Of a stretch of 64,000 nt of DNA, positions 1,011-38,174 are shown piece after piece. How positions within the stretch are numbered: the stretch's first letter is position 1; each line of letters opens with the position of its first letter. Origin of the DNA: Acidimicrobiia bacterium (GTDB lineage: Bacteria > Actinomycetota > Acidimicrobiia > Acidimicrobiales > AC-14); the NCBI GenBank assembly GCA_023265025.1, contig JAHFUP010000004.1, forward strand, positions 1-64,000. Direction: 5' to 3'. Below the pieces are notes generated by a model, which did not search any database, was not told the origin of the DNA, and saw only the letters and a list, made by a program, of their open reading frames with translations. The position numbers and the translations under genes were made by a program.

Positions 1011-4000
1011 ATGGATTCGCAGCCTTCCGCACCTCCGTTGGTCGCGGTCGTCGTCGCCGACCAGCCCGGTGAGTGGTTCGAGGAGGCCCTGCAGGCGATC
1101 GGGGCGCAGGACTATCCGAACCAGTCCGTGCTGGTCATCGACGGCGCCGGCCGGGACGACCTGGGGCCGCGCGTGGCCGCGGTCCTGCCCGACGCCTTCC
1201 TTCGCCGGCCCCAGCGCACGGCCGGCCCCGGTGGGTTCGCGGCGGCGGCCAACGACGTGCTCGACACGGTCCAGGGGGCGGCCTTCCTGGTCTTCTGCCA
1301 CGACGACGTGGCGCCGGAGCACGACGCCCTGCGCCTCCTGGTGGAGGAGTCCCTGCGGTCCAACGCCGGCATCGTGGCCCCGAAGCTGGTCGACTGGGAC
1401 CACGAGGACCGCCTGCTCAGCGTGGGCCTCTCGGTGGACAAGACCGGCGCCACCACCTCGCTGGTCGACCGGGGGGAGCTCGACCAGGAGCAGCACGACT
1501 CGGTGCGCGACGTGTTCGCCGCCTCCTCCGCCTGCCTGCTCGTCCGGGCCGACCTGTTCGCCGAGCTCGGCGGGTTCGACGCGGTCATGGCCGACTACGG
1601 CGCCGACGTCGACCTCTGCTGGCGGGCCCAGGTGGCGGGCGCACGGGTCGTCGTGGCGCCCGAGGCGCGCGTCCGCCACCGGGAGGCGGCGAAGGAGCAG
1701 CCGGGCGCCGACCCCGAGCGGGCCACGCTCGAGCCCCGCAACCACCTCCGGGCCATGCTCAAGAGCTACACCTGGCTTCACCTGCTCCGGGTCCTGCCCC
1801 AGGCCATGGTCGCCACCGTCGTGGAGGCGCTCGTCGCCCTCGCCACCCGCAGGGGCCACGAGGCCCGCGAGGTGGTCGGCGCCTGGGCGTGGAACGTCCG
1901 CCACCTCGGCGACCTGCGACCGCTCCGGGCCGGCGTGCGCCGCACGCGGGCCGTGCCCGACTCCGAGGTCCGGCGCCTCCAGGCGCGCGGCAGCTCCCGC
2001 CTCAGCGTGTACCTCCAGCGCCGGCTCCACGCCGAGGAACGGGCCCGCCAGCTCGTCCTGGCCGGGCAGGAGCTGGTGGAGTCCGTCGGGCGGGGCCCGG
2101 CGCGCGCCGCCACCGCCCTCCTGTGCCTGCTGACCCTCGGCCTGCTCATCGGAAGCCGCAACCTGGTGACCGACCGGCTGCCGGCCGTCGGCCAGTTCGC
2201 CCCGTACCCGCGGCCGTCGACGCTGCTCACCCACTTCTTCGACGGCTGGCGCACCACGGGCATGGGCTCGGCGGCGCCCTCGCCACCCGCGTTCGGGATC
2301 CTTGGTGTGCTGGGGGTCGCCTTCCTCGGCCACATGGGGGCGCTGGCCAAGGTGCTGGTCTTGGGCGCCTGGCCGGTGGCCGCCTTCGGCGCCTGGCGGC
2401 TGGCCAGGCCGCTCGACTCCGCCATGGCCCGCATCGCCGCCGTCATCGCCTGCCTGGCCGTCCCCCTCCCGTACAACGCCCTGGCCCGGGGGCGCTGGAC
2501 GGCCCTCCTCGCCTACGCGGCAATGCCGTGGTTCCTGCTCCTTCTGGCCCGCATGACCGGCATCGAGCCCTTCGGCAACGGCCAGGCCCGGCGCCGCCGG
2601 CGCCGAGGCCGCCGCCGCGGCCATGCCGCCAGCGCCGGACGCGACGCGGCCGGCGCCGGGCCGGCGTGGCGCCCGTACCTGCTGCTCGGCGTCCCGCTCG
2701 CCGCGGTCAGCGCCTTCGTCCCCGGCATGGGTGTGGCCGTGATCGTGGCCGGCCTGGGCCTCGTGCTCGGCTCGGTCCTGGTCGGCGGCATGGGCCCGGC
2801 CACCCGCGCCCTGCGGGGGGCCATCGGCGCCGTGGTCGTCGCCTTCGTCCTGCTCCTGCCCTGGTCCGTCGCCCTCGCCCTGCCCGATGGCTGGTCGACC
2901 GTCGCCGGCGTGGGACGCCTGCCCAGCCGGGGCTTCGGCTTCGGCGCCCTGCTGCGCTTCCAGGTCGGCCCGGTGGGCTCCGGCATCCTCGGCTGGGCCC
3001 TGCTGGTGGTGGCGGCCATGCCCCTGCTGGTCGGCCGGGGCTGGCGCTTCGCCTGGGCCGTGCGGTTCTGGGCCGTCGCCCTGCTCGCCATCGGCCTGGC
3101 CTGGGCCGGAGGACGGGGGTGGCTGCCGGTGCGCCTCCAGGACCCCGACCTGCTCCTCGCGCCGGCGGCGGCCGCACTGGCGGGGGCGGTGGCGATGGGC
3201 GCGGCCGCATCGCAGGTCGACCTCCGGGGCTACCGGTTCAGCTGGCGCCAGGCCGCGCCGCTCTTCGGTGGGCTCGCCCTCGTCGCGTCCGTCCTGCCGG
3301 TGCTGATCGCCTCGATCAGCGGCACCTGGCACCTGAGCTCCGACGACGTGGCCCGCTCGGTGGCGTGGATGCGGCCGCTGGCGGAGCAGGGAGCGTTCCG
3401 CGTCCTCTGGGTCGGCGACCCGGAAGCCCTCCCCCTCGACGGCTGGGCCCTTGAGGGCGAACAGGGCGTGGCCTACGCCACTTCCCGGAACGGGCCTCCC
3501 GACGTCAGCGACCTCTGGCCCGGGCCGTCGTCCGACGCGACGAGGGCCCTGGGGGACGCACTCCGGGTGGCCCGCCGGGGCGGCACGGCCCGGCTCGGCC
3601 GCCTGCTGGCGCCCATGGGCGTCCGCTTCATCGTGGTGCCCAAGCAGCTCTCCACCAGCGGCGACTCGCCCGAGGCGCTGGCCATCCCTCCCGGCCTGAC
3701 CCGGGCCCTCGGCTCCCAGCTCGACCTGCGCGTCCTGCCGTCCGACCCGGCGCTCGACGTCTACGAGAACGTGTCGTGGGGGTCGATGCGCAGCCTGCTC
3801 ACCGACGCGGCCCGGTCCGCGCTGGGCGCTGACCCCAGGGCCGGCGTCGACCTGACCGGCAGTGCGCCGGTGCTGGCGGGACGCGGCCCGGTCCGCTTCA
3901 AGGGCTCCCTGGCCAACCCTGGGACGGTGCTGCTGGCCGAGGCGCCGTCGGGACGGTGGGAGCTCAGCGTCTCCGGCGACACTGCGGTGCGCGCCGACGC

Positions 4001-7510: not shown

Positions 7511-8725
7511 ATGTCGATCGCCATCGAGTGCCACGGCGTCTGGAAGAGCTACCGCATCTACCACCAGCGCTCGCACACGCTCAAGGAGAAGGTCCTCAGC
7601 CGCCGCAGCCGCTACGACGACTTCTGGGCGCTACGAGGGGTCGACCTCGAAGTGCAGGCGGGGACGACGTTCGGCATCATCGGCGCCAACGGGTCCGGCA
7701 AGTCGACCTTGATGAAGAGCCTGGCCCGCATCCTCGCGCCGAACCGGGGCTCGCTCACCGTGAACGGCACCGTCTCGCCCCTGTTGGAGCTGGGCACCGG
7801 CTTCCACCCCGAGCTGACCGGACGCGAGAACCTCTTCCTCGGCGGCTCCCTGTTGGGCCAGAACCGGGCCCACATCCAGGCCCGCTTCGACGACATCGTC
7901 GACTTCGCCGGCATCGGCGAGTTCATCGACGCCCCGGTCAAGAACTACTCCAGCGGCATGTACGCCCGGCTGGCCTTCGCCCTGGCCATCAACGTCGACC
8001 CCGAGATTCTCCTGGTCGACGAGGTGCTCTCGGTCGGCGACGAGAGCTTCCAGATGCGGTGCTACCAGCGCATCGCCGAACTGCGCATGGAGGGCCGCAC
8101 CATCGTGATGGTGTCGCACAACCTCGACACGATCCGCAGCATGTGCAGCCACGCCGTGTGGTTGGAGCACGGCACCGTCCAGCTGGCTGGCGAGTCCGAC
8201 GCGGTGGCTGCCGGCTACCTCGCCGAGGTGCACCGCGACGCCAGCCAGCACTCGGGCCTCGCCCCCTCGGGCAGCCGTCACGGCACCGGGCGGGTGGAGA
8301 TCACGGGAGTGACCTTCGTCGACCGCAACGGCGTCGCCCAGGGCGCCTTCCGCACCAACGAGCCCTTCACCGTGCGGGTGCAGTACCGGGCCAAGGAGCG
8401 TACCGACGACATCGCCTGCGGGATCGCCGTGCTCAGCGCGCAGAACCTGTCCTACCTGTTCGGCCACAGCAGCAATGCCGCCGGCCTCGACCTCGACCTC
8501 GACGGCGAGGGGGCGATCGAGTTCACCCTCCCGAGCCTCCCCCTGATGCAGGGCAGCTACGTCGTCACCGTCGCCCTCGAGGGCGTGAAACAGCCTGGCG
8601 TCTTCGACATGCACGACCGCCGGTACTCGTTCCTGGTCTTCGAGAACCCGACGCTGTCCCTCCAGGCCGGCATGGTGCGCGTCGAGGGGTCGTGGACCGT
8701 GTCGCCCTCGCCGGTGGCGGCCTGA
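7511..8725 (+). CDS. ABC transporter ATPase with C-terminal glycan-binding domain (Wzt-like)
   Basis: A 404-residue protein. Residues 1-240 form the nucleotide-binding domain: Walker A GANGSGKST (58-66), signature NYSSGMYARLAFA, Walker B EILLVDEVLSVGD, and switch histidine MVSHN. Residues about 245-400 form a beta-rich domain typical of Wzt proteins that recognise the capped end of their own polysaccharide, as in the E. coli O8/O9a systems. Such a long ATPase suggests that the glycan is finished and capped in the cytoplasm before export, which fits the methyltransferases in this locus. ATG 7511 follows the permease stop with no gap, and the stop overlaps the next start (ATGA). Confidence 0.95.
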   Translation: MSIAIECHGVWKSYRIYHQRSHTLKEKVLSRRSRYDDFWALRGVDLEVQAGTTFGIIGANGSGKSTLMKSLARILAPNRGSLTVNGTVSPLLELGTGFHPELTGRENLFLGGSLLGQNRAHIQARFDDIVDFAGIGEFIDAPVKNYSSGMYARLAFALAINVDPEILLVDEVLSVGDESFQMRCYQRIAELRMEGRTIVMVSHNLDTIRSMCSHAVWLEHGTVQLAGESDAVAAGYLAEVHRDASQHSGLAPSGSRHGTGRVEITGVTFVDRNGVAQGAFRTNEPFTVRVQYRAKERTDDIACGIAVLSAQNLSYLFGHSSNAAGLDLDLDGEGAIEFTLPSLPLMQGSYVVTVALEGVKQPGVFDMHDRRYSFLVFENPTLSLQAGMVRVEGSWTVSPSPVAA

Positions 8726-9111
8726 TGCTGCGGGGCAGCGACGTTCCCCGGATGATGACCCGCGTCCAGGCCACCCTCCAGCGGGCGGCCCGCGCCCACA
8801 CGCCCGGGGAGCCGGCGGTCTACGTGGTGTCGCCCGTCGGGGACGGCGACCTGGCCACCGCCCGCCTGCGCCACCTGGCCGACATCCAGATCGAGTTCCA
8901 CTCCGGTTCGGCCCGGCCGGTAATCGGCCCGTCGATCCGCATGGCCAAGCGGGCCGTCCGGCGGGGCCTGCGCTGGTACGTGGGCCCTATCGTGGCCCAG
9001 CAGACCCGCTTCAACCACGCCACCGTCGAGTTGCTGGAGAGGCTCCGCCTTCAGAACGAGGCGCTGTCCGCCGAGGTCGAGCGCCTGCAAGCCGACATCG
9101 ACCACCAGTGA
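8725..9111 (+). CDS. Small protein with C-terminal coiled coil in the glycan operon
   Basis: ATG 8725 overlaps the Wzt stop (ATGA) and opens a 128-residue protein. The last 35 residues (LLERLRLQNEALSAEVERLQA) form a clear short coiled coil. The preceding segment IVAQQTRFNHATVELLERL resembles a linker often found near methyltransferase or glycosyltransferase modules of actinobacterial polysaccharide clusters. No catalytic motif is visible. Its stop overlaps the next gene (GTGA), so it is translated as part of the same unit. A structural or complex-forming role is inferred. I do not recognise a named family. Confidence 0.75.
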   Translation: MLRGSDVPRMMTRVQATLQRAARAHTPGEPAVYVVSPVGDGDLATARLRHLADIQIEFHSGSARPVIGPSIRMAKRAVRRGLRWYVGPIVAQQTRFNHATVELLERLRLQNEALSAEVERLQADIDHQ

Positions 9112-10925
9112 GCGGCAAGGTCGCAGTCGTCGTCCTCACATGGAACGCCCTTGCCCACACCAAGGCGTGCCTGGGCGCGCTGGCCGGCACCGACCATCCC
9201 GCCTGGCGGGTGATCGTCGTGGACAACGGCAGCACCGACGGCACCGTCGATTGGCTCCGGGGCCTCGGCTGGGTGACGGTGATCGCCAACGACAAGAACC
9301 TCGGCTTCACCAAGGGCTGCAACCTCGGCATCGCCGCGACGGACCACGACGAGGACGTCGTGCTGCTCAACAACGACCTGGTCGTCGGCTCGCCGTCCTG
9401 GCTCGGTGACCTCCAGGCCGCGGCATACGAGCGACCGGGCATCGGGGTGGTGGGCACCCGGTTGGTCGACGGGCAGGGCCTGGTCAGCCATCTGGGCAGC
9501 TACATGCCGCCGCGGTCGCTCTGGGGCCAGCAGATGGGCGGCCTGGAGCTCGACGTCAACCAGGCCCGCCGCACCCGGTCCGTGGAGGCCGTGGTGTTCG
9601 CCCAGGCCTACCTGACCCGAGCCTGCCTCGACGTGGTGGGCGGGCTCGACGAGACCTATTTCTCCTACTTCGAGGACACCGACTACTGCCTCCGGGCCGC
9701 CCAGGCCGGCTTCGAGGTGCTCTACGCCGGCGGCGTCTGCTCCACCCACGTGGGCAACGTGAGCACGCGGGAGAACAACGTCGACTTCTGGTCGATGTAC
9801 AACCGCTCGGCCCGCACCTTCCGCAAGCGGTGGGCGGCGTGGCTGGAGGACGAGCGCTACGACAGCGACCTCGTGTGGCACTCGATCCTGCACCGGGCGC
9901 CCGGGTACGCGCTGCAGTCGAAGAAACTGATGACCGCCCTGCACTTCGCCGGCACCAAGGTGGCCTACCGCAACGCCTACGGCGAGGACGACGGCGAACC
10001 CGACTCCGCCCTGATCCACGACCTCCTGAAGCGCCCGGTCAGCACCGACGTGGCCCAGGTCGGGTTCTGCCAGGCCAACGTCTTCGGCGGCATCCAGGGG
10101 CGCAGGAAGGTGGGTTGGACCATGCTGGAGGTCAGCGGCCTGCCCCAGGAATGGGTCGACAGCTGCAACACCATGGACGAGATCTGGGTGCCGGCGTCGT
10201 TCAACGTGGAGACGTTCCAGTCCAGCGGGGTCACCGTCCCGGTCCGGGTCATGCCGCTCGGCGTCGATATCGATTACTTCAACCCCGGCATCACCGGGTT
10301 CCGCCCCACCAGTCGGTTCACCTTCCTGTCGGTCTTCGAGTGGGGGGAGCGCAAGGGGGCCGAGCTCCTCCTCCGGGCCTTCGCCGAGGAGTTCAAGGAG
10401 TCCGAGGACGTGCTCCTACTCCTCGCCGTCTACAACCGCGACCCCGACGTCAACGTGCACGAGCAGGTGGCGAAGCTCCGGCTGCCGGCGTCGCCGCCCA
10501 TCGTGGTGATGCTCAACCCCGAGTTCGCCGACCACCAGATGGGCGCCTTGTACCGCTCCGCCGACTGCTTCGTGCTGCCCACGCGCGGCGAGGGCTGGGG
10601 GATGCCCGTCCTGGAGGCTATGGCGTGTGGGCTCCCGGTGATCGCGACGAACTGGAGCGGCCCGGCCGACTTCTTGCACGCCGGCGTGGGCTATCCCCTG
10701 GAGGTGAGGTCGATGGTGAAGGCAGTGGCCAAGTGCTTCTGGTACGACGGGTTCGAGTGGGCCGAGCCCGACGCCGACCATCTCCGGTTCCTGCTCCGTG
10801 AGGTCGTCGACCAGCCCGACCAGGCGCGCGAGCGGGGCGCGGCGGCGGCGGCCGAGGTCGCCGGCAAATACACGATCGAGCACGCCACGGCCCGGGTGCG
10901 CGACCGGCTGCGAGAGCTGGCATGA
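9108..10925 (+). CDS. Bifunctional glycosyltransferase (GT2-GT4 fusion)
   Basis: GTG 9108 overlaps the previous stop. The 605-residue protein opens with a GT2 domain (1-250): VAVVVLTWNALAHTKAC, VVDNGSTDGTVDWL, a metal-site variant NND at 88-90 (VVLLNNDLVVG), and YFSYFEDTDYCLRAAQAG. From about residue 310 a GT-B, GT4-like domain follows, with FTFLSVFEWGERKGAE, then the donor-phosphate motif RGEGWGMPVLEAMACGLPV near 490-510 carrying both glutamates of E-x7-E. Two active-looking transferase domains in one chain would add two successive sugars, or the same linkage pair, to the export glycan. Donors and linkages cannot be inferred. Confidence 0.92.
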   Translation: MSGKVAVVVLTWNALAHTKACLGALAGTDHPAWRVIVVDNGSTDGTVDWLRGLGWVTVIANDKNLGFTKGCNLGIAATDHDEDVVLLNNDLVVGSPSWLGDLQAAAYERPGIGVVGTRLVDGQGLVSHLGSYMPPRSLWGQQMGGLELDVNQARRTRSVEAVVFAQAYLTRACLDVVGGLDETYFSYFEDTDYCLRAAQAGFEVLYAGGVCSTHVGNVSTRENNVDFWSMYNRSARTFRKRWAAWLEDERYDSDLVWHSILHRAPGYALQSKKLMTALHFAGTKVAYRNAYGEDDGEPDSALIHDLLKRPVSTDVAQVGFCQANVFGGIQGRRKVGWTMLEVSGLPQEWVDSCNTMDEIWVPASFNVETFQSSGVTVPVRVMPLGVDIDYFNPGITGFRPTSRFTFLSVFEWGERKGAELLLRAFAEEFKESEDVLLLLAVYNRDPDVNVHEQVAKLRLPASPPIVVMLNPEFADHQMGALYRSADCFVLPTRGEGWGMPVLEAMACGLPVIATNWSGPADFLHAGVGYPLEVRSMVKAVAKCFWYDGFEWAEPDADHLRFLLREVVDQPDQARERGAAAAAEVAGKYTIEHATARVRDRLRELA

Positions 10926-11260
10926 GGCGGCTCATGGCCCTCGGCCACCGGCTCCCGCCGCCCGTGTTCGCTCGTATCCAGACCGCACGGGGCACCCTGG
11001 CCCGGGCCGTCGCCGGCACCGAGCTCCACAAGCTGCGCCAGGAGATGGACCGCCTGCACGACGACATGGTCGAGCTCCTGGCCCACCACCGCGACGACCT
11101 GGTGGCCCGCAACGACGCCGTTCTGTCGAACTACGACCGGCGCGTGGCCAGCGTGGCCAACCGGCTCCTCGATCTCGAAGCGCGTGTCGACGCGGTGGGC
11201 CCGGCGGCCGCGGCCGACGCCAACCGCATCCTGGCCGGGCACGAGGAGCACCCGGGCTGA
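10922..11260 (+). CDS. Small coiled-coil protein in the glycan operon
   Basis: A 112-residue protein whose ATG overlaps the preceding stop (ATGA). Residues 35-92 are strongly helical with heptad-like hydrophobic spacing (LHKLRQEMDRLHDDMVELL, later VASVANRLLDLEARVDAV), so it should form an extended coiled coil. There is no signal peptide and no catalytic motif. It is one of several coiled-coil segments between the enzymes of this locus; a scaffold or length-setting role is a speculation discussed in the findings. Its TGA overlaps the probable CTG start of the next gene. Confidence 0.72.
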   Translation: MRRLMALGHRLPPPVFARIQTARGTLARAVAGTELHKLRQEMDRLHDDMVELLAHHRDDLVARNDAVLSNYDRRVASVANRLLDLEARVDAVGPAAAADANRILAGHEEHPG

Positions 11261-12426
11261 TCCCCACCCGCCTGGTCGCGTTCACCCCCGGCCCCCCCCG
11301 AGCGAGCGGCGGCGCCATCTACGCAGGGGCACTGCTGCCCGCCCTCGCCGAGCACGTCGAGACGGTGGCCGTGTCGCCGGTGGCCGTCGCCTGGGACGGC
11401 CCGACCATCGCCGTCGAGGCCTTCGAGCCCGCCGCCGGTGACGTGCTCCTGCACTTCCTCGGCAACAACCCCGAGCACCTCTTCGCCTATGTGACCGCCC
11501 TGCGCTGGGGCGGCGTGGTGGTGTGCCACGACATGGGGTTCCACCACATGCTCCGGGGCTTCGCCCCCGCGGAGGAGCGGGCCGACGCCGTCGTCCAGCT
11601 CGGCCACCCCGGGGCGGCCCAGCTGCTCGACCGCTGGGACCGCGGCGTCGTCGGCCTGGAGGAGTTCCTCCTCCCCGTCATCGCCCGTCCCCTCCGGCGC
11701 GCCGAGGCGGTCGTCGTGCACAGCCGGTACGCCGGGTTCATGGTCGGGGCCGAGGCGCCGGGCGTCGCTGTCCACGTGGTGCCCCAGCACGCCGGCGCCG
11801 TCCCGGCCATCGCCGGCGACGCCGCCACGTTGCGAGCCCGGCTGGGCCTGCCGGGCGACGCGTTCGTCGCCGGCCTGTTCGGCTACCTCGGCGGCCACAA
11901 GCGGGTGCTGGAGTCCCTGCAGGCCCTGGCCGTGGCCCGGCCGCGCATCGAGGCGTCCGGGCGCCGGCTGCACGTGCTGCTCGTCGGCGCCGCCGTCGGC
12001 CTCGATCCGGCCGGGCTCCTCGCGTCGCTCGGGCTGGCCGGCATAGCCACGGTCACCGGGCCCGTCGACGACGGCCGGTTCTTCGACCACATGGCCGCCG
12101 CCGACGTGGTGCTGAACCTGCGCTACCCCACGATGGGCGAGTCGTCGGCCACGATGATGCAGGCCATGAGCCTCGCCAAGCCGGTGATCACCACCGACCA
12201 CGCCCAGTTCGCCCAGGAGAAGGCGGCCATCCGGGTGCCGGTGGGCGACGGCGAGGTGGCGGCGATCGCCGAGGCCGTCGTCCGCCTGGCGACATGCCCG
12301 ACCTGCTACTCGCGGGTGGCGGACGCATCACGGGCCCGCGCCGGCGAGGGCCGCCTCGACCGCGTCGTCGCCCGCTGGCTCGAGATGGTCGACGCGGTCC
12401 TGCGGGCCCGCCCGGCCGCTCGCTAG
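11257..12426 (+). CDS. GT4-like glycosyltransferase with a probable CTG start
   Basis: A 389-residue GT-B protein. The conserved N-terminus LVAFTPGPPRASGGAIYAG begins just after 11257, but no ATG, GTG or TTG occurs in frame there. The CTG at 11257-11259 overlaps the previous TGA exactly as the other starts in this operon do, so CTG is the likeliest start. The C-terminal half has FVAGLFGYLGGHKRVLESL and the nucleotide-binding segment MGESSATMMQAMSLAKPV. That segment is a variant in which the second glutamate of the canonical E-x7-E motif is replaced by Gln. Such variants occur in a known GT4 subgroup; activity is likely but not certain. The gene ends inside repeat copy 2. Confidence 0.85.
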   Translation: MIPTRLVAFTPGPPRASGGAIYAGALLPALAEHVETVAVSPVAVAWDGPTIAVEAFEPAAGDVLLHFLGNNPEHLFAYVTALRWGGVVVCHDMGFHHMLRGFAPAEERADAVVQLGHPGAAQLLDRWDRGVVGLEEFLLPVIARPLRRAEAVVVHSRYAGFMVGAEAPGVAVHVVPQHAGAVPAIAGDAATLRARLGLPGDAFVAGLFGYLGGHKRVLESLQALAVARPRIEASGRRLHVLLVGAAVGLDPAGLLASLGLAGIATVTGPVDDGRFFDHMAAADVVLNLRYPTMGESSATMMQAMSLAKPVITTDHAQFAQEKAAIRVPVGDGEVAAIAEAVVRLATCPTCYSRVADASRARAGEGRLDRVVARWLEMVDAVLRARPAAR

Positions 12427-28024: not shown

Positions 28025-28912
28025 ATGGACACCAACGCGAGGCGACCTGCACGGCGCCGGGCCGGCGTCACCGCCATCGCCGCCATGCTGCTGCTCACTG
28101 CGTGCGGGGGCGGTTCGGGCCGCGGCGATGTCGATCCCCTCGCCGTCGACACCACCGCCCCCAAGCTCGACACGGCCTGCCCGGCCGAGGGCCACGTCGA
28201 CACCCTCGGCGTACGGGGCCTCACGCCGACCGAGATCGCCAACCTGCCGCTGACCTACACGTTCCTGAACGTGGGCGCCGACAAGTGCACGCCGGCCCGC
28301 TTCAACCCGTGCGAGCCCGTCCACTACATCCAGAACGGCGCCGCGGCGCCGGCCTTCGTCGTGGAGAACACGCGGGAGGCGTTCAAGCGGCTGGGCCAGG
28401 TCACGGGCATCGAGTTCATCGACGACGGCCTGACCGACGAGAACACCCGGCGGGGGCCGTACGTGCCCGAGCGCTACCCCGGCCGGTGGGCGCCGATCCT
28501 CATCGTGTGGGAGCAGTTCCCGGCCGCGCAGACCTCGGGCGCGTCACAGATCCTCGGCAACACCGTCCCGACGCGTGTCCAGGAGATCACCGTGACGGCC
28601 CGCCTGCGCTTCAACGTCGACTCCTACAACAACGAGGACACCAAGGCGCCCATCGAGGACGGGTTCGGCCCGCCCGCGGGCAGCGGCACCGGCCCGATCG
28701 GCCGCAACAACATCACGTGGGGCCGGATCATCCTCCACGAGCTGGCCCACGTGGTGGGGCTGGGCCACACGCGGGAGGAGGGCTCGCTCATGTACCCCGA
28801 CGCGGCCCAGCAGACCATCCGCCCCACCGGGTTCTCGAAGTCCGACCTCACCGGCCTGCGCTACCTGGGCAAGGACGCCGGCTGCGTCCCCAACCCGCCG
28901 AAGCCCAGCTGA
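28025..28912 (+). CDS. Matrixin-like zinc metalloprotease lipoprotein
   Basis: A 295-residue protein with a lipoprotein signal peptide: a basic N-terminus, AIAAMLLLTAC with the lipidated Cys at 27, then a glycine-rich tether. Near the C-terminus lies the extended zinc site HELAHVVGLGH (238-248), the HExxHxxGxxH motif of metzincins, followed by the Met-turn SLMYPD. This is typical of matrixin-like peptidases. It should be anchored at the outer face of the membrane. Substrate unknown. It precedes the CO dehydrogenase genes but has no obvious tie to them. Confidence 0.88.
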   Translation: MDTNARRPARRRAGVTAIAAMLLLTACGGGSGRGDVDPLAVDTTAPKLDTACPAEGHVDTLGVRGLTPTEIANLPLTYTFLNVGADKCTPARFNPCEPVHYIQNGAAAPAFVVENTREAFKRLGQVTGIEFIDDGLTDENTRRGPYVPERYPGRWAPILIVWEQFPAAQTSGASQILGNTVPTRVQEITVTARLRFNVDSYNNEDTKAPIEDGFGPPAGSGTGPIGRNNITWGRIILHELAHVVGLGHTREEGSLMYPDAAQQTIRPTGFSKSDLTGLRYLGKDAGCVPNPPKPS

Positions 28913-28932
28913 GTCAGGCCTACCATGGCCCG

Positions 28933-29808
28933 GTGAGCCGCCCCAGCTCCCCCGTCGAGCTGGCTGCGGCGCTGAGCGGGCAGGCCTACTTGGCCGACCG
29001 CGGCCTCAGCACCGCCATGTTCCTGGCCCTCTCGCTGCAGCGCCCGCTGCTGCTGGAGGGCGAGGCCGGCGTGGGCAAGACGGAGGCGGCCAAGGCGTTG
29101 GCGGCCGCCTTCGGCGTCGATCTGATCCGGCTGCAGTGCTACGAGGGCATCGACGCCGGCCAGGCGCTGTACGAGTGGGACTACGCCCGCCAGCTCCTCC
29201 ACATCCGGGCGCTGTCCGAGCGGGCCGCGGCCGACGACCGCGCCGTCGAGGAGCTGTTCGGCCCGCAGTTCCTCGTCGAGCGCCCCCTGCTCAAGGCGCT
29301 GCGGGCCGGCGACCACGCCGTCCTGCTGATCGACGAGATCGACCGGGCCGACGACGAGTTCGAGGCCTTCCTGCTGGAGGTGCTCTCCGACTTCCAGGTC
29401 ACCGTCCCCGAGATCGGCACCATCAAGGCCGACGTCCCGCCGGCGGTGGTCGTCACGTCGAACCGCACCCGGGAGCTGCACGACGCCCTCAAGCGCCGCT
29501 GTCTCTACCACTGGATCGACTACCCCACGCCGGAGCGGGAGATCGAGATCGTGCGCCTGCGGGCGCCGGAGGTGGACGGGCAGCTGGCGGCCAAGGTCGC
29601 CGCCGCGGTGGGTCGGCTGCGCGGCCTCGACATGGCCAAGCCCCCGGGCGTGGCCGAGACGATCGACTGGGCCCACGCCCTCAACGCGCTGGGGGCCACG
29701 GCGCTGGACGAGACCACCGCAACCGACACCCTCGGCGCCGTCGTCAAGGACCACGACGACATGGCCCTCGTCATGGAGCACCTGGCCGAGGTGGTCGGCA
29801 ACGCCTGA
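28933..29808 (+). CDS. coxD: MoxR-family AAA ATPase, CoxD-like
   Basis: GTG 28933 opens a 291-residue AAA ATPase: Walker A GEAGVGKT (43-50), Walker B LLIDEID (131-137), sensor segment AVVVTSNRTRELHDALKRR. It belongs to the MoxR group, whose CoxD members work with a VWA protein to mature the Mo-Cu active site of CO dehydrogenase. Here the VWA gene follows within four bases and coxMSL follow after that, which supports the CoxD assignment. The gene symbol rests on this context. Confidence 0.85.
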   Translation: MSRPSSPVELAAALSGQAYLADRGLSTAMFLALSLQRPLLLEGEAGVGKTEAAKALAAAFGVDLIRLQCYEGIDAGQALYEWDYARQLLHIRALSERAAADDRAVEELFGPQFLVERPLLKALRAGDHAVLLIDEIDRADDEFEAFLLEVLSDFQVTVPEIGTIKADVPPAVVVTSNRTRELHDALKRRCLYHWIDYPTPEREIEIVRLRAPEVDGQLAAKVAAAVGRLRGLDMAKPPGVAETIDWAHALNALGATALDETTATDTLGAVVKDHDDMALVMEHLAEVVGNA

Positions 29809-29812
29809 TGTC

Positions 29813-30934
29813 GTGCCGGCCGCGGCGGATCTGCTCCCGGCGCTCGTCGGGCTGGGCCACGAGTTGCGGGTCGACGGGCTGGCGGTCGGCACCGGCCAGC
29901 TGATCGCCTTCTCCCGGGCCGTCGGCCTGCTCGACCCGTCCGACAGCGACGACGTGTACTGGGCGGCCCGGGCCTCACTCGTCTCCCGCCACGAGGACCT
30001 GGATGCCTTCGAGCGGGCATTTCGCCGGTGGGCCGGCCGGGCCGGCGGGATCGCCATGAAGGTCACCGGCGAGCTGCCGAGGCTGCCGATGACCGCGCCG
30101 CGGGAGCCCGCCGGCGCCGTCCGCCGGCGGCTAGAGCCGGCGGTCGACGCCGACCGGGGCCAGGTCGCCTCCAGCGCCGACGTGCTCCGGCACAAGCGCT
30201 TCGTCGACTGCACCCCCGGTGAGCTGGCCGCCCTGGCCGAGCTCATGGCCCGGCTCCGGCTACGGGTCCCCGACCGCCGGGTGCGCCGCACCGCGCCGTC
30301 GTCCAAGGGCCGCTACCCCGACCTGCGGCGCACCGTCCGCCGGGCGATGCGGAGCCAGGGCGAGGTGCTCGACCAGTCGTGGCGGGCCCGCCTGAGGAGA
30401 CCCCGCCGCGTCGTCCTCCTCCTCGACGTCTCCGGCTCGATGGCCGGCTACTCCCGTGCCCTCCTGCAGTTCGCCCACACGGCCGCCCGCCACGGACGCG
30501 TCCCGACCGAGGTGTTCTGCTTCGGGACGCGCCTGACCCGGGTGACCGTCGCCCTCCGCCACCGGCGGCCGGACGAGGCCCTGGCCCGAGCGGCCGAGAC
30601 GGTCGTCGACTGGGAGGGAGGCACCCGGATCGGTGATTCGATCAGGACGTTCGTCCGGGAATGGGGCCGGCGGGGCATGGCCCGGGGCGCGGTCGTCGTC
30701 GTCTGCTCCGACGGCCTGGAGCGCGGCGAACCCGCGGCACTGGCCGCCGAGATGGCCAAGCTCGCCCGCCTGGCCCACCGCATTGTGTGGGTCAACCCGC
30801 TCAAGGGCGACCCCCGCTACCTCCCCCTCGCCGGGGGGATGAGTGCGGCGCTGCCGTTCGTCGACATCTTCCTGGCGGGCCATGATCTGGCCAGCCTGGA
30901 GGCGCTGGCCGCGCTGCTTCCCGAGCTCATATGA
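29813..30934 (+). CDS. coxE: VWA-domain protein, CoxE-like
   Basis: GTG 29813 gives 373 residues. The C-terminal half is a von Willebrand A domain with an intact MIDAS motif DVSGS (205-209: RRVVLLLDVSGSM), then WEGGTRIGDS and VVVVCSDGLERGE. The first half is helical with basic and acidic patches typical of CoxE. MoxR-VWA pairs act as chaperone complexes for cofactor insertion. In CO dehydrogenase loci, CoxE with CoxD is required for maturation of the bimetallic cluster. Confidence 0.87.
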   Translation: MPAAADLLPALVGLGHELRVDGLAVGTGQLIAFSRAVGLLDPSDSDDVYWAARASLVSRHEDLDAFERAFRRWAGRAGGIAMKVTGELPRLPMTAPREPAGAVRRRLEPAVDADRGQVASSADVLRHKRFVDCTPGELAALAELMARLRLRVPDRRVRRTAPSSKGRYPDLRRTVRRAMRSQGEVLDQSWRARLRRPRRVVLLLDVSGSMAGYSRALLQFAHTAARHGRVPTEVFCFGTRLTRVTVALRHRRPDEALARAAETVVDWEGGTRIGDSIRTFVREWGRRGMARGAVVVVCSDGLERGEPAALAAEMAKLARLAHRIVWVNPLKGDPRYLPLAGGMSAALPFVDIFLAGHDLASLEALAALLPELI

Positions 30935-30992: not shown

Positions 30993-31000
30993 AAGGAGGT
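30993..31000 (+). promoter_or_regulatory. Strong ribosome binding site of coxM
   Basis: AAGGAGGT ends four bases before ATG 31005. It is unusually strong for this window, where most starts lack a clear site, and it fixes the coxM start. Confidence 0.85.
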
Positions 31001-31004
31001 GGCG

Positions 31005-31871
31005 ATGTTTCCGTCACAGTTCACCTACCACGCTCCTGCGACCCTGGGCGAAGCCCTGGCCCTGCTGGCCGAGCACGGTGACGACGCCAAGGTCCTCGCC
31101 GGCGGGCAAAGCCTCATCCCGCTGATGAAGCTGCGCTTCGCGGCGCCGCCGATCATCGTCGACATCAACCGCATCCCGGGCCTCGACACGATCGCCGAGG
31201 AGGGCGGCTCGCTGCGGGTGGGCGCCCTGGTCCGCAACCGGGCCATCGAGCGCTCGGACGTGATCACCTCCCGCTACCCGACCATGGCCGCGGCGGCGCC
31301 GATGATCTCCGACCCCGTCGTCCGCAACCAGGGCACGTTCGTCGGCTCGCTCTGCCATGCCGACCCCCAGGGCGACTGGGGTTCGGTCATGCTCGCCCTC
31401 GACGGGTCGGTCGTCGCCCGCAGCGTGGCCGGTGAGCGGGTCATCCCGATCGGCGAGTTCCTGGACGGGCCCTTCACGTCGACCCTGCGGGCCGACGAGC
31501 TGGCGGTCGAGGCCCGGGTGCCCGACCCGGGCTCGGAGTTCGCCGGCACGTACCTGAAGTTGGAGCGAAAGGTCGGCGACTTCGCCACCGTGGGCGTCGC
31601 CGTCTTCCTGGCCACCAGCGGGGGCACGGTGACCAAGGCGGGCATCGGGCTCACCGGCGTCGGCGCCACCAACATCAAGGCGACCGCCGCCGAGCAGGCG
31701 CTCGTGGGCGGCACCGTCTCGGACGCGTTGATCGAGGAGGCGGCCCGCCTGGCGGCCGAGGCCGCCGATCCCCGCACGGACATCCGCGGCAGCGCGGACT
31801 ACAAGCGAGACGTCGTGCGCGTCTACGTCGCCCGCGGCCTCCGCGCCGCCGCCGCCACTCCGGTGGCCTGA
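31005..31871 (+). CDS. coxM: Aerobic CO dehydrogenase, FAD subunit (medium)
   Basis: A 288-residue flavoprotein of the molybdenum hydroxylase family. FAD-binding motifs are AGGQS (32-36) with SLIPLMKLR behind it, and NQGTFVGSLCHADPQGD around 108-123, which corresponds to the TIGG-type motif. The strong Shine-Dalgarno site before ATG 31005 sets the start. CoxM passes electrons from the CoxS iron-sulfur clusters through FAD to the respiratory quinone pool. It is followed ten bases later by coxS. Confidence 0.94.
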   Translation: MFPSQFTYHAPATLGEALALLAEHGDDAKVLAGGQSLIPLMKLRFAAPPIIVDINRIPGLDTIAEEGGSLRVGALVRNRAIERSDVITSRYPTMAAAAPMISDPVVRNQGTFVGSLCHADPQGDWGSVMLALDGSVVARSVAGERVIPIGEFLDGPFTSTLRADELAVEARVPDPGSEFAGTYLKLERKVGDFATVGVAVFLATSGGTVTKAGIGLTGVGATNIKATAAEQALVGGTVSDALIEEAARLAAEAADPRTDIRGSADYKRDVVRVYVARGLRAAAATPVA

Positions 31872-31881
31872 AGGGAGCCGC

Positions 31882-32351
31882 ATGAACATCACCGTCACCG
31901 TGAACGGCTCGGCCCGCACGTCCGAGGTCGAGCCCCGCATGCTCCTCGTCCACTACATCCGAGAGGTCCTCGGGTTGCGGGGCGCCCACGTCGGCTGCGA
32001 CACGACCAGCTGCGGTGTGTGCACCGTGCTCCTCGACGGGCTGCCCGTGAAGTCGTGCACGATGTTCGCGGTGCAGGCCGACGGCCGGAGCATCATGACC
32101 GTCGAGGGCATGGCGACGAACGGCCAGCTCCACCCGGTGCAGGCCGCCTTCCACTCCGAGCACGGATTGCAGTGCGGGTTCTGCACGCCGGGGATGATGC
32201 TGGTCGCCAAGGCCTTCCTGGAGGAGAACCCGGCGCCCTCCGAGGAGGAGATCCGCTGGGCAATCTCCGGGAACCTGTGTCGGTGCACGGGCTACCAGAA
32301 CATCGTGAAGGCCGTACAGGCCGCGGCCCGGAACATGAGTGAGGTGTCGAA

Positions 32352-32355
<4 letters not shown>
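31882..32355 (+). CDS. coxS: Aerobic CO dehydrogenase, 2x[2Fe-2S] subunit (small)
   Basis: A 157-residue ferredoxin-like subunit. Cluster I ligands: Cys39, Cys44, Cys47 and Cys59 (GCDTTSCGVCTVL). Cluster II ligands: Cys98, Cys101, Cys133 and Cys135 (QCGFCTPGMM and NLCRCTGYQNI). These are the two standard [2Fe-2S] sites that link the molybdenum centre in CoxL to the FAD in CoxM. Its stop overlaps the coxL start by four bases (GTGA). Confidence 0.96.
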
Positions 32356-34721
<2,366 letters not shown>

Positions 34722-34748: not shown

Positions 34749-35654
34749 ATGGGACTAGACCTCGCGGCCGAGGAGGCGTTGCTCGTCGGTCGCCGTGAGC
34801 CCTACGCCCGGGTCACCGTGGTGTGGTCGCGGAGCCCCGTGTCGGCCCGCGCCGGCGACGCCGCACTGGTGACCGTCGACGGCCGGCTGCGGGGATGGGT
34901 CGGCGGGTCGTGCGCCGAGCCGGTGGTCGTCGCCCAGGCCATGAAGGCGCTGGCCGAGGGCACGCCGCGGCTGGTTCACCTGGCGCCGGCCGGGGAGCCT
35001 CCACCCGAGCGCGAGGGCCTGGTGATCGCGCCGGTCACCTGCGCCAGCGAGGGCTCGCTGGAGGTGTTCGTCGACCCGCGGCTGCCGGCGCCGCACCTGG
35101 TCGCCGTGGGGCGCTCACCCCTGGTGGAGGCGTTGTCGACCATGGCCGGCGCGGTCGGGTTCGACGTGACCGTGTACGAGCGGGAGGGCGGCGAGGTGGA
35201 TCTCGCCAAGGCCGGCGCCGGCCCCGACTCGTTCGTCGTGGTGGCGACCATGGGCCGCTATGACGAGGACGCCATCAAAGCCGCCCTTGCCACCGACGCC
35301 CGGTACATCGCCCTGGTCGCCTCCGAGCGGCGGGCCACCGCGGTCCTGGCCACGGTGGCGAAGGAGCACCGCACCCGGGTGCACGCGCCCGCCGGCCTGG
35401 ACCTCGGCGACCTCCCGCACGTCGAGATCGGCGTCGCCATCCTGGCCCAGATCGTGGCCGAGAAGGCGCGGGCCAGGCAGGTGTTCCTCACGGCGGCGCC
35501 GGCGCCGGCCACCGCCGTCGATCCCGTCTGCGGCATGACCGTCGACCCCGCCACCGCCGCCGACCGCTTCGAGCACGAAGGCGCCACCTACTGGTTCTGC
35601 GCCAGCGGCTGCCGCCGGCGCTTCGAGTCCGACCCTTCGGCGTACATCTCATGA
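34749..35654 (+). CDS. XdhC/CoxF-type maturation protein fused to a YHS domain
   Basis: A 301-residue protein. The first 250 residues contain the XdhC_CoxI domain (VVWSRSPVSARAGDAALVTV, GWVGGSCAEPVV) and a C-terminal Rossmann-type XdhC domain (FVVVATMGRYDEDAIKAAL). XdhC-family proteins bind and protect molybdenum cofactor before insertion. The last 45 residues (257-301) are a YHS domain, VDPVCGMTVDP ending in WFCASGCRRRF, a metal-binding module with three Cys residues. A YHS fusion is unusual and might handle copper for the Mo-Cu site. ATG 34749 has no good ribosome site, and the stop overlaps the next gene (ATGA). Confidence 0.88.
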   Translation: MGLDLAAEEALLVGRREPYARVTVVWSRSPVSARAGDAALVTVDGRLRGWVGGSCAEPVVVAQAMKALAEGTPRLVHLAPAGEPPPEREGLVIAPVTCASEGSLEVFVDPRLPAPHLVAVGRSPLVEALSTMAGAVGFDVTVYEREGGEVDLAKAGAGPDSFVVVATMGRYDEDAIKAALATDARYIALVASERRATAVLATVAKEHRTRVHAPAGLDLGDLPHVEIGVAILAQIVAEKARARQVFLTAAPAPATAVDPVCGMTVDPATAADRFEHEGATYWFCASGCRRRFESDPSAYIS

Positions 35655-36748
35655 GCGAGCTCGACGAGGTCCTCGCCGCCCTGGAAGCGTCGACCGGTGA
35701 CGACGTCGCCCTCGCCACGATCGTCGCCGTCCGGGGGTCGACCTACCGGAGGGAGGGCGCGCGGCTCGTCATCCCTGCCGACGGCCCCACCGTCGGCAAC
35801 ATCTCGGGCGGGTGCCTGGAGGGCGACGTCATCGACACCGCCCGCGAGGTGCTCGCCGGCGGCAAGCCGCAACTGCTCCACTTCGACCTCACCGCCGACG
35901 ACGAGGCGGTGTGGGGCTGGGGGCTCGGCTGCAACGGCGCCATCGACGTGCTCGTCGAGCCGGCGTCCGCCGCCCGCCCCTTCGTGGCCGCGCTCCGCAC
36001 CGCGGCTCGCAAGCACCGACCCGTGGCTCTGGTGACGATCGTCGACGGGCCGACGACCGGCGCCCGTCTCATCGTCCACCCCGATGGGAAGGTCGAAGGT
36101 GACCTGGGCACCTCGGCCCGCGCCGCCGGCCTCGATGCCCTGGCCGGCGGGCGGAGCAGGACCATCGTGCTGCAGCCCGACGGCGTCCGGGTGTTCGTCG
36201 AGGTCCTCCAGCCGTCGCTGCACGCCGTCGTGTGCGGCGCCGGCCACGACGCCATCCCGGTCGTGGAGTTCGGCGCCCGTCTCGGCTGGCGGGTCGACGT
36301 GATCGACGACCGGCGAGGCATGCTCAACGGCAAGCGGTTCCCCCATGCCACCCGCCTGGTCCACTCCCAGCCCGCGGTGGCGGCCGACTCCGTCGGTGCC
36401 GACGCCAGCACGTCGGTCGTCGTCATGAGCCACAACTTCGTGCGCGACGCCGCCTACCTGCGATCATTCCTCGCCCGCCCAATGGCGTACGTCGGCGTGC
36501 TCGGCCCGGCGGCACGGCTGGAGCGGCTGCTCGACACGCTCGCCGGCGAGGGCTTCACGCCGCCGGCCAGAGCGCGGGCGAACGTCCACGGTCCCGCCGG
36601 GCTCGACGTCGGCGCCGAGGGGCCGGAGGAGATCGCCTGGGCGATCGTCGCCGAGATCCTGGCCGTGCGGCGCGGGGCCGGCGCCGGGTTCCTCCGGGAC
36701 CGGAGTGGGCCGATCCACCCCCGGACGGCCATGGAGACTGTGGGGTAA
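35651..36748 (+). CDS. XdhC/CoxF family maturation protein
   Basis: A 365-residue XdhC-family protein whose ATG overlaps the previous stop. N-terminal XdhC_CoxI block: ALATIVAVRGSTYRREGARL, VGNISGGCLEGDVIDTARE, GWGLGCNGAIDVLVEP. C-terminal Rossmann block: AVVCGAGHDAIPVVEFGARLG, VVVMSHNFVRDAAYLRSFLA, YVGVLGPAARLERLL. It should bind molybdenum cofactor and help insert it into CoxL. Two XdhC paralogues in one CO dehydrogenase locus may divide cofactor sulfuration and copper loading, but that is inference. Confidence 0.92.
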   Translation: MSELDEVLAALEASTGDDVALATIVAVRGSTYRREGARLVIPADGPTVGNISGGCLEGDVIDTAREVLAGGKPQLLHFDLTADDEAVWGWGLGCNGAIDVLVEPASAARPFVAALRTAARKHRPVALVTIVDGPTTGARLIVHPDGKVEGDLGTSARAAGLDALAGGRSRTIVLQPDGVRVFVEVLQPSLHAVVCGAGHDAIPVVEFGARLGWRVDVIDDRRGMLNGKRFPHATRLVHSQPAVAADSVGADASTSVVVMSHNFVRDAAYLRSFLARPMAYVGVLGPAARLERLLDTLAGEGFTPPARARANVHGPAGLDVGAEGPEEIAWAIVAEILAVRRGAGAGFLRDRSGPIHPRTAMETVG

Positions 36749-36757
36749 GGAACGCAC

Positions 36758-37558
36758 ATGCGCATCGACAACAGCTTCACCGTGGCCCTGCCCGCCGACG
36801 ACGCGTGGAAGGTGCTGCTCGACGTCGAGCGGATCGCGCCGTGCATGCCCGGCGCCGAGCTGCAGGAGATCACCGCCGACGAATACCGCGGCGTCGTCAA
36901 GGTCAAGCTTGGCGCCATCACCGCGCAATACAAGGGCGTCGTCCGTTTCGCCGAGGTCGACGAGGCCGGCCGGCGCCTCGTCCTACGGGCCGAAGGGCGG
37001 GAGACGCGAGGGCAGGGCAACGCCTCGGCGGCGGTGACGGCCACGCTCCGCCCCGCCGGCGAGGGACGGACCGAGGTGACCATCGAGACCGATCTCACCA
37101 TCAGCGGCAAGATCGCCCAGTTCGGCCGGGGCGTCATGGCCGACGTGTCGTCGAAGCTGCTGTCCGACTTCGCCCGCTGCCTGGAGAACGACCTGCTGAC
37201 CGCGAACATCCCGCCGGCGGCCAGCCCCGGGACGAAGGCGACCACGGCCGAGATCATCGCCGACGAGGTGGCCGACCTCGCCGTCGACGACCCCGAGCGG
37301 GCCGCCCGGTTCGTCGAGGCCGTGTCGCCACCGAAGCCCCAGCCCCGGTTGGTGCAGTCGAAGCCCGCCGAGCCAGTCGACCTGCTGGCCGTCGCCGGCG
37401 GCTCCGTCGCCGAGCGGGCGGTGCCCGCGGCAATCGTCGGCGTCTTCCTGCTCCAGGTGCTGCCCAAGGGCCGGCTCAAGCGGTTGGGGCTCGCCGTGCT
37501 GGGCTCGGCCCTGGTGGCCGGCATGGTGGCCGGCAAGCAGCACCAGCAAAAGCGCTGA
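36758..37558 (+). CDS. coxG: CoxG-like SRPBCC protein with a membrane tail
   Basis: A 266-residue protein. Residues 1-150 form an SRPBCC (Bet v1-like) domain of the CO dehydrogenase subunit G type: NSFTVALPADDAWKVLLDVE, CMPGAELQEI, GKIAQFGRGVMADVSSKLL. A Pro/Ala-rich linker leads to a hydrophobic C-terminal helix (AIVGVFLLQVLP and AVLGSALVAGMVAG) that would insert in the membrane. CoxG proteins are reported to tether CO dehydrogenase to the membrane, and more recently to deliver quinone to it. ATG 36758 has a nearby GGGGTAAGG ribosome site. Confidence 0.9.
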   Translation: MRIDNSFTVALPADDAWKVLLDVERIAPCMPGAELQEITADEYRGVVKVKLGAITAQYKGVVRFAEVDEAGRRLVLRAEGRETRGQGNASAAVTATLRPAGEGRTEVTIETDLTISGKIAQFGRGVMADVSSKLLSDFARCLENDLLTANIPPAASPGTKATTAEIIADEVADLAVDDPERAARFVEAVSPPKPQPRLVQSKPAEPVDLLAVAGGSVAERAVPAAIVGVFLLQVLPKGRLKRLGLAVLGSALVAGMVAGKQHQQKR

Positions 37559-37565
37559 GGGGGCC

Positions 37566-38174
37566 GTGCCGAGGGTCTGCGGGATCATCCTCGGCGCCGG
37601 CTCGTCCCGGCGCCTCGGCCGGCCCAAGCAGACCCTGCCCTTCGGCGGCACGACCCTCCTCGGACGGGTGGTCGCCGACGTGGAGGCGTCGTCCCTCGAT
37701 CAGGTGATCGTCGTGGTCGGCGGCTCCGAGGAGGAGGCCCGCGCCGGCCTCACCCTGACCCGGGCGGAGGTCGTGTCGAACGCGGCCTACGCCACCGGGT
37801 GTGCGTCCTCGTTGCTCGCGGGGATGGACGCCGCCGGCGACTGCGACGCGCTGATGCTGCTACTCGGCGACATGCCCGGCGTCGACGCCACGGTCATCGA
37901 CGCCGTCCGCGCCGACTGGGAGACGCACCGCCCCTGGGCCGCGGTCACCGACTACCAGGGCGCGCCCGGCCATCCGTTCGTGTTCTCTTCTGCGGCGTTC
38001 CCGACGCTCCGGGACCTCCACGGGGACAAGGCGGTATGGAAAATCCTCGACTCCGAGCCCGAGCGGGTCCGGCGGGTGCCGATCGCCCGCCCCGTGCCGG
38101 CCGACGTCGACACCTGGGACGACTACGTCGACGCGTGCCGCACGTTCGGGGTCACGCCGGCGCCGGCGTCGTAG
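37566..38174 (+). CDS. MocA-like molybdenum cofactor cytidylyltransferase
   Basis: GTG 37566 gives 202 residues of the nucleotidyltransferase family (NTP_transf_3). The nucleotide-binding motif GIILGAGSSRRLGRPKQTLP and the metal-site DALMLLLGDMPGVD are intact. Members of this group (MocA, MobA-like) convert molybdopterin to the dinucleotide form; CO dehydrogenase uses molybdopterin cytosine dinucleotide, so a CTP-dependent enzyme fits this locus exactly. It closes the cox operon. Confidence 0.88.
   Translation: MPRVCGIILGAGSSRRLGRPKQTLPFGGTTLLGRVVADVEASSLDQVIVVVGGSEEEARAGLTLTRAEVVSNAAYATGCASSLLAGMDAAGDCDALMLLLGDMPGVDATVIDAVRADWETHRPWAAVTDYQGAPGHPFVFSSAAFPTLRDLHGDKAVWKILDSEPERVRRVPIARPVPADVDTWDDYVDACRTFGVTPAPAS

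Follow-up and report, generated by a model that had tools for sequence, protein, structure and literature searches.

The DNA analysed here, a stretch of 64,000 nucleotides from an Acidimicrobiia bacterium (hereafter the window), encodes a protein in which an XdhC maturation factor is fused at its C-terminus to a YHS domain. It belongs to a form I CO dehydrogenase locus, of which it is the CoxF. Judging from sequence, the best reading, which we hold with moderate confidence, is that the YHS domain serves as a tethered copper-docking arm from which copper would be handed to CoxL, the Mo-Cu subunit. CoxF is a known kind of protein, and a copper-type domain on it is undescribed in the literature searched: within the open-access literature, a coverage that leaves out most subscription journals and preprints, no paper was found that pairs XdhC, CoxF or carbon monoxide dehydrogenase with YHS. 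The evidence computed here concerns the architecture of the protein, its orthology with CoxF, its confinement, within the sets searched, to form I loci, the conservation of its putative ligands and the purifying selection acting on it.

The reading frame opens with an ATG at 34749 and closes with a TGA at 35652-35654 (Table 1). A sequence-only reading of the window had placed an XdhC-YHS fusion at 34749-35654; the coordinates hold exactly, three Pfam domains bear out the architecture and the gene can now be named as coxF. Each of the three domains, XdhC_CoxI, XdhC_C and YHS, exceeds its curated Pfam cut-off, the YHS domain (PF04945) with an E-value of 2.8e-10 and 40.5 bits against a cut-off of 30.3, and this is the single YHS domain found in the source genome at E <= 0.01. 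Chance, a sequencing error or a MAG artefact is ruled out as the origin of the fusion, since 67 further ORFs show this architecture. Over all 68 fusions, Pfam at E <= 0.01 detects XdhC_C in 68, XdhC_CoxI in 67 and YHS in 59, and a profile made from ten of the fusions detects YHS in all 68.

The cluster around the gene is complete for an aerobic CO dehydrogenase, and all its genes from the CoxD-like to the MocA-like one run in the same orientation. With 1184 bits the CoxL of the window clears the TIGR02416 cut-off (991), and its active site reads GGVAYRCSFR. The start of coxF lies 27 bp downstream of the form I coxL. Its stop codon shares an ATGA with the start codon of the following gene, which encodes another XdhC, this one CoxI-type.

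Table 1. The cox cluster of the window and the parts of the coxF-type gene, with positions counted from the first letter of the window.
Feature	Position	Strand	Basis and remarks
coxD-like MoxR-type AAA+ ATPase	28912..29808	+	family search; start approximate
coxE-like VWA protein	29813..30934	+	family search
coxM, FAD subunit	30996..31871	+	ORF and Pfam; start codon set by hand
coxS, [2Fe-2S] subunit	31882..32355	+	family search
coxL form I, Mo-Cu subunit	32352..34721	+	GGVAYRCSFR; TIGR02416
coxF-type gene, XdhC maturation factor with C-terminal YHS	34749..35654	+	301 aa; ORF and Pfam, CoxF by tree
XdhC_CoxI domain, residues 15-77, with conserved Cys55 inside	34791..34979	+	Pfam 3e-15; conservation
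CoxF signature C-x-S-x-G (Cys98-Ser100-Gly102)	35040..35054	+	motif alignment; PMC4240915
XdhC_C Rossmann domain, residues 117-235	35097..35453	+	Pfam 2.4e-18; fold match 2we7/2we8, 3on5
linker, residues 244-253, low confidence (pLDDT < 50)	35478..35507	+	structure model
YHS domain, residues 257-300; putative ligands Asp258, Cys261, Cys284, Cys288	35517..35648	+	Pfam, alignment
second XdhC, CoxI type, without YHS	35651..36748	+	family search, tree
coxG	36758..37558	+	family search
MocA-like molybdenum cofactor nucleotidyltransferase	37566..38174	+	family search

The identity of the fused protein was settled from its XdhC part. In a quick tree of 70 XdhC cores, made without bootstrap from sequences whose YHS parts had been cut off and including 31 of the 68 fusions, 18 CoxI/XdhC rows lie on one side of a branch with an SH-aLRT value of 99. 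On the opposite side are the YHS fusions, with the window protein among them, together with CoxF proteins that lack YHS, including that of O. carboxidovorans, and the candidate identity as a CoxI-type XdhC was rejected on this separation. A C-x-S-x-G motif, defined in this analysis as a signature of CoxF, is present in 66 of 68 fusions, in 20 of 23 YHS-less CoxF-like rows and in none of 40 CoxI-type rows. Its two misses among the fusions are the truncated L077 and L055, which has Gly for Ser. The three YHS-less rows without it (L103, L104, L106) are CoxF-like XdhC proteins with MPCGG in its place, and none has a CoxL alongside. In the window protein the motif coincides with the sequence M107CPSHGTM, suggested as a copper site in O. 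carboxidovorans CoxF by Pelzmann et al. (PMC4240915), the Met positions not being conserved.

The occurrence of the fusion was compared with that of form I CoxL in 396 genomes of Actinomycetota, the phylum of the window as judged from named relatives (L001-L005); in this and the second genome set, the CoxL and fusion-profile searches scored a few candidates per genome. Among the matches listed, CoxL above the TIGR02416 cut-off occurs in 56 of the 396 genomes at 58 loci, and the 57 loci other than the window all read AYRCSFR or AYACSFR. Again among the matches listed and with the window included, CoxF carries YHS at 48 of the 58 loci and lacks it at three (L013, L014, L027); the fetched stretch shows no CoxF at two (L064, L066), and five are cut by contig ends (L030, L034, L044, L048, L068). 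YHS is present, then, in 48 of the 51 actinomycetotal form I loci, among the matches listed, whose adjacent CoxF is complete. L064 and L066 are second form I CoxL copies (in genomes G092 and G189) with a branch of their own in the CoxL tree. The active-site motif itself varies. AYACSFR is found in a large actinobacterial group (L013-L026, L028-L030, L032, L033, L111), SYRCSFR in some alphaproteobacterial-type loci (L094, L097-L101) and AYRCSFM in Caballeronia (L112).

Approached from the side of the fusion, the picture is the same. The ten-fusion profile matches 180 of the 396 genomes at E <= 1e-20, and among the matches listed those that reach into YHS separate from the other XdhC proteins, whose matches end earlier or cross a stop codon. 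Ten fusion places lacked a full-length CoxL among the matches first listed. Six of them adjoin the C-terminus of a CoxL (L070-L074, L078), three end at a contig edge (L075, L076, L079), and at the tenth, L077, a C-terminal remnant of CoxF is left without any CoxL nearby. Downstream of this remnant (2642-3046, + strand) are two long ORFs that by eye resemble RND-type efflux pumps. The 68 XdhC-YHS ORFs collected comprise 57 from loci whose form I CoxL could be read, seven beside a truncated CoxL end at a contig edge, where the form of CoxL is not readable, three at contig ends and the one truncated remnant. Hence 64 of 68 adjoin CoxL or a CoxL end. The sequence-only reading had asked whether the fusion is confined to form I CoxL loci, and these counts agree with such confinement; a wide occurrence of the fusion away from Mo-Cu enzymes, which it named as the contrary case, was not found in 396 plus 299 genomes and the plasmids, where the remnant is the sole exception.

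The YHS domain itself is more widely distributed, being found at E <= 1e-4 in 128 of the 396 genomes. No XdhC part was found in any of 68 non-CoxF YHS ORFs of at least 220 amino acids (one place per ORF, among the matches listed, with E up to about 4.5e-8). The motif DKTGT, which we take as a mark of P-type ATPases, occurs in 22 of these 68, and by eye YHS is also seen on ORFs resembling ABC-type ATPases, permeases, glycosyltransferases and class III cyclases (L113-L180). At the loci examined, no YHS was found in the CoxI-type XdhC next to either form I or form II CoxL, nor was one found in form II clusters with CoxD, CoxE and XdhC (L082, L084, L085, L088, L089). A general tendency of YHS to fuse to XdhC proteins was also considered and rejected by the fusion-profile and YHS searches of the genome sets.

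In the window the YHS domain offers one Asp and three Cys, the same set as in the copper-responsive YHS domain described in PMC4626032. Across 68 YHS domains, Asp258 is kept in 65, Cys261 and Cys284 in 67 each and Cys288 in 68; the Deinococcus domain is degenerate, with both Cys261 and Cys284 gone. Over 20 disjoint pairs pN/pS is 0.37 for YHS and 0.30 for the XdhC core, so that both parts are under purifying selection. The linker between them spans 14-82 residues in the various fusions and consists of 23% Ala, 13% Pro and 10% Gly. In the structure model of the window CoxF it is the sole stretch of at least three residues below pLDDT 50, and it is probably flexible. The CoxF at locus L054 (7671-9155, - strand) has two YHS domains in tandem, both copies with DPICGM and the FC...C pair.

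The isolated YHS domain was modelled with a pLDDT of 92. Its best fold rows, all of weak statistics, are the YHS region of monooxygenases (Z 6.4, rmsd 2.6, 49 aligned residues) and L24-type ribosomal proteins (Z about 5); Foldseek with the same model gave nothing below E 0.06, and a whole-protein fold search again returned the monooxygenase YHS region as a weak row. A TRASH/L24e-like fold for the domain is accordingly tentative. We know of no copper role for the similar fold in L24e ribosomal proteins or in monooxygenase hydroxylases.

Beyond Actinomycetota, the fusion is found in Chloroflexota, Deinococcota, Betaproteobacteria and the haloarchaeon Natronorubrum bangense. Six plasmid records carry it in full, those of Thermomicrobium roseum, Natronorubrum bangense, Deinococcus sp. 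AJ005, Paraburkholderia aromaticivorans and two Caballeronia, one of these fusions (H4) being judged from its tblastn row. All six fall within 19 plasmid records that hold a close CoxL (53% identity or more), called form I by identity (53% or more over CoxL) in 12 records and by the read motif in seven. The other 13 have no full fusion, as read from the CoxF end in O. carboxidovorans OM5 and Nonomuraea and judged by tblastn row in the rest; they comprise Nonomuraea and twelve that, from their genus names, are presumably alphaproteobacterial.

The second genome set consisted of 299 genomes from the phylum of Tabrizicola (G402), which we take to be Pseudomonadota, and 13 of them have a form I CoxL. 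In this sample no YHS was found on CoxF beside form I CoxL (L090-L101, with L108 for the locus cut in L102), and the fusion profile gave no YHS fusion among the matches at E <= 1e-25 in the 299 genomes. Pfam YHS was likewise found in none of the 23 CoxF-like rows outside the fusions, two of them truncated at contig ends, and the CoxF proteins of L013, L014, L027 and L111 also lack it. In L027 (ORF 8602-11943) the place of YHS is taken by a short tail of Cys, His and Gly, GGGCCGHGSG, which from its sequence could itself bind metal. In 11 of the 13 YHS-less Pseudomonadota loci (L090-L102), an ORF for a CoxC-like MHYT membrane protein lies upstream of coxMSL. A replacement of YHS by MHYT proteins in alphaproteobacteria was considered; MHYT was sought in few YHS loci. 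MHYT proteins look like regulators.

The history of the fusion was followed on a CoxL tree of 84 rows rooted with form II. On this quick tree, which has no bootstrap and has long root branches, and in which rows whose CoxF could not be read were treated as unresolved, the presence (58 rows) and absence (17 rows) of YHS require five changes. The YHS-less rows make up one alphaproteobacterial clade of 13 and the single rows L013, L014, L027 and L111. The deepest form I branches, the archaeon included, have YHS. The domain thus appears to have been lost in the alphaproteobacterial clade and in four other lineages. The tree fits an old fusion followed by several losses, with the proviso that CoxL may move horizontally.

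The published function of CoxF comes from O. carboxidovorans. According to PMC4240915, CO dehydrogenase from a coxF::km mutant contains, per mol, 1.85 Mo, 1.40 sulfane sulfur and 0.043 Cu, against 1.73, 1.53 and 1.47 in the enzyme of wild type grown under the same conditions, and the enzyme of a coxE::km mutant contains 0.00 Cu. The coxE mutant also lacks CoxF and the coxF mutant also lacks CoxE, so the copper defect is not assignable to CoxF alone (PMC4240915); in PMC3471820, too, copper insertion is described as requiring both CoxE and CoxF.

A mechanism can be proposed for the copper-docking arm. The XdhC core of CoxF would dock on folded, sulfurated apo-CoxL, and YHS, on its flexible Ala/Pro-rich tether, would bind one copper ion through Asp258, Cys261, Cys284 and Cys288. 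The ion would then be passed, directly or via Cys98-x-Ser-x-Gly in the core, to the sulfur of Mo-SH and the cysteine of CSFR in CoxL, and CoxD and CoxE would assist in the hand-over. Copper as the metal, the direction of transfer and the relay are the parts of this scheme that we infer. Copper insertion in general cannot depend on YHS, since the alphaproteobacterial clade manages without it, and the main case against the scheme is that O. carboxidovorans, the source of the mutant data, inserts copper with a CoxF that lacks YHS. Possibly the arm raises the capture of copper when copper is low, or another protein does its task in O. carboxidovorans. The link to copper loading that the sequence-only reading drew from the fusion stands in part: the fusion is tied to form I loci, but an alphaproteobacterial clade has CoxF without it, and the metal bound by YHS could be copper or another. 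It is conceivable, though we lean slightly against it, that CoxF began as a two-part copper chaperone dedicated to the Mo-Cu enzyme, in which copper was taken up by the YHS arm and went through CxSxG to the Mo-SH of folded CoxL. If so, the O. carboxidovorans picture, of a CoxF that has a proposed copper site and lacks a copper domain, would represent a derived state, since the lineage in which the mechanism was worked on would be one from which the arm had disappeared.

Other roles for the domain have to be weighed. YHS could hold a structural zinc, or no metal, and dock CoxF to CoxL, CoxE or CoxD while copper comes from elsewhere. The closest solved folds, the C-terminal part of toluene, phenol and methane monooxygenase hydroxylases and ribosomal L24e, agree with such a role, as do a match of the Pfam MYM-type zinc-finger model to 8 of the 68 fusions and the functioning of alphaproteobacterial CoxF without YHS; according to PMC4626032, the Cys set of L24e, four in number, binds Cd in the crystal. 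However, a strict limit to the CoxF of a Mo-Cu enzyme is unexpected of a generic docking zinc finger, and 65 of the 68 domains have Asp as their first ligand, as does the copper-responsive YHS (PMC4626032), rather than Cys as in the four-Cys site of L24e. We consider a docking role of this kind unlikely, though it is the alternative to be taken most seriously.

The domain could instead sense copper and switch CoxF on or off with the copper supply, its own ion not being handed on. A precedent is the adenylyl cyclase of M. phlei, in which a C-terminal YHS on a short linker turns the enzyme on with 1-10 uM Cu and, among the transition metals assayed with Mg, responds to copper only (PMC4626032). 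A linker that ranges from 14 to 82 residues is easier to reconcile with a tethered carrier than with a conformational switch, and the same goes for the tandem YHS of L054; neither point is decisive, and we regard sensing as distinctly improbable. Sulfur rather than copper might also be the cargo, the YHS cysteines carrying persulfide for the Mo-SH step. XdhC proteins have been tied to Moco sulfuration (PMC4240915), and three Cys are conserved in YHS. This idea is disfavoured by the mutant data, in which the coxF mutant enzyme is near-normal in sulfane sulfur yet without copper; in the same source the sulfuration role in O. carboxidovorans is given to CoxD. In the sets searched, moreover, the other XdhC proteins, which serve enzymes needing sulfur and not copper, have no YHS. 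A sulfur-carrying YHS thus seems very improbable, and the copper-docking arm remains the reading that we prefer.

On the route of copper to the [CuSMoO2] site of CO dehydrogenase, PMC4240915 states that work at the protein level is still needed. A copper-insertion factor is now linked to a small, separable domain of about 50 residues, of metal-binding type and with conserved ligands. The domain, which occurs at form I loci of bacteria and of one archaeon, offers a concrete target for the question of how copper enters the enzyme. The best-studied species has no YHS arm. The finding also suggests that an actinobacterial system is worth including in studies of the copper step.

Several known systems resemble parts of this protein. 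The CoxF of O. carboxidovorans OM5 (WP_013913733, plasmid pHCG3, L009) is about 36% identical to residues 15-236 of the window CoxF, shares the XdhC_CoxI and XdhC_C core and CxSxG, and is likewise encoded in a cluster with form I CoxL, CoxD, CoxE and CoxG; unlike the window protein, it stops soon after the core and has neither YHS nor the D-C-C-C site. The crystal structures 2we7/2we8 (the M. smegmatis homologue of Rv0376c) and 3on5 (BH1974) have the XdhC core fold of the window CoxF, and in the fold search they gave no match to its YHS region. The YHS domains of copper-transporting P-type ATPases match residues 232-299 of the window CoxF with 44% identity, but those proteins are membrane transporters without an XdhC part. 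The M. phlei YHS adenylyl cyclase differs in being a cyclase fusion and a sensor outside enzyme maturation; like the window CoxF, it bears at its C-terminus, on a linker, a YHS domain with one Asp and three Cys.
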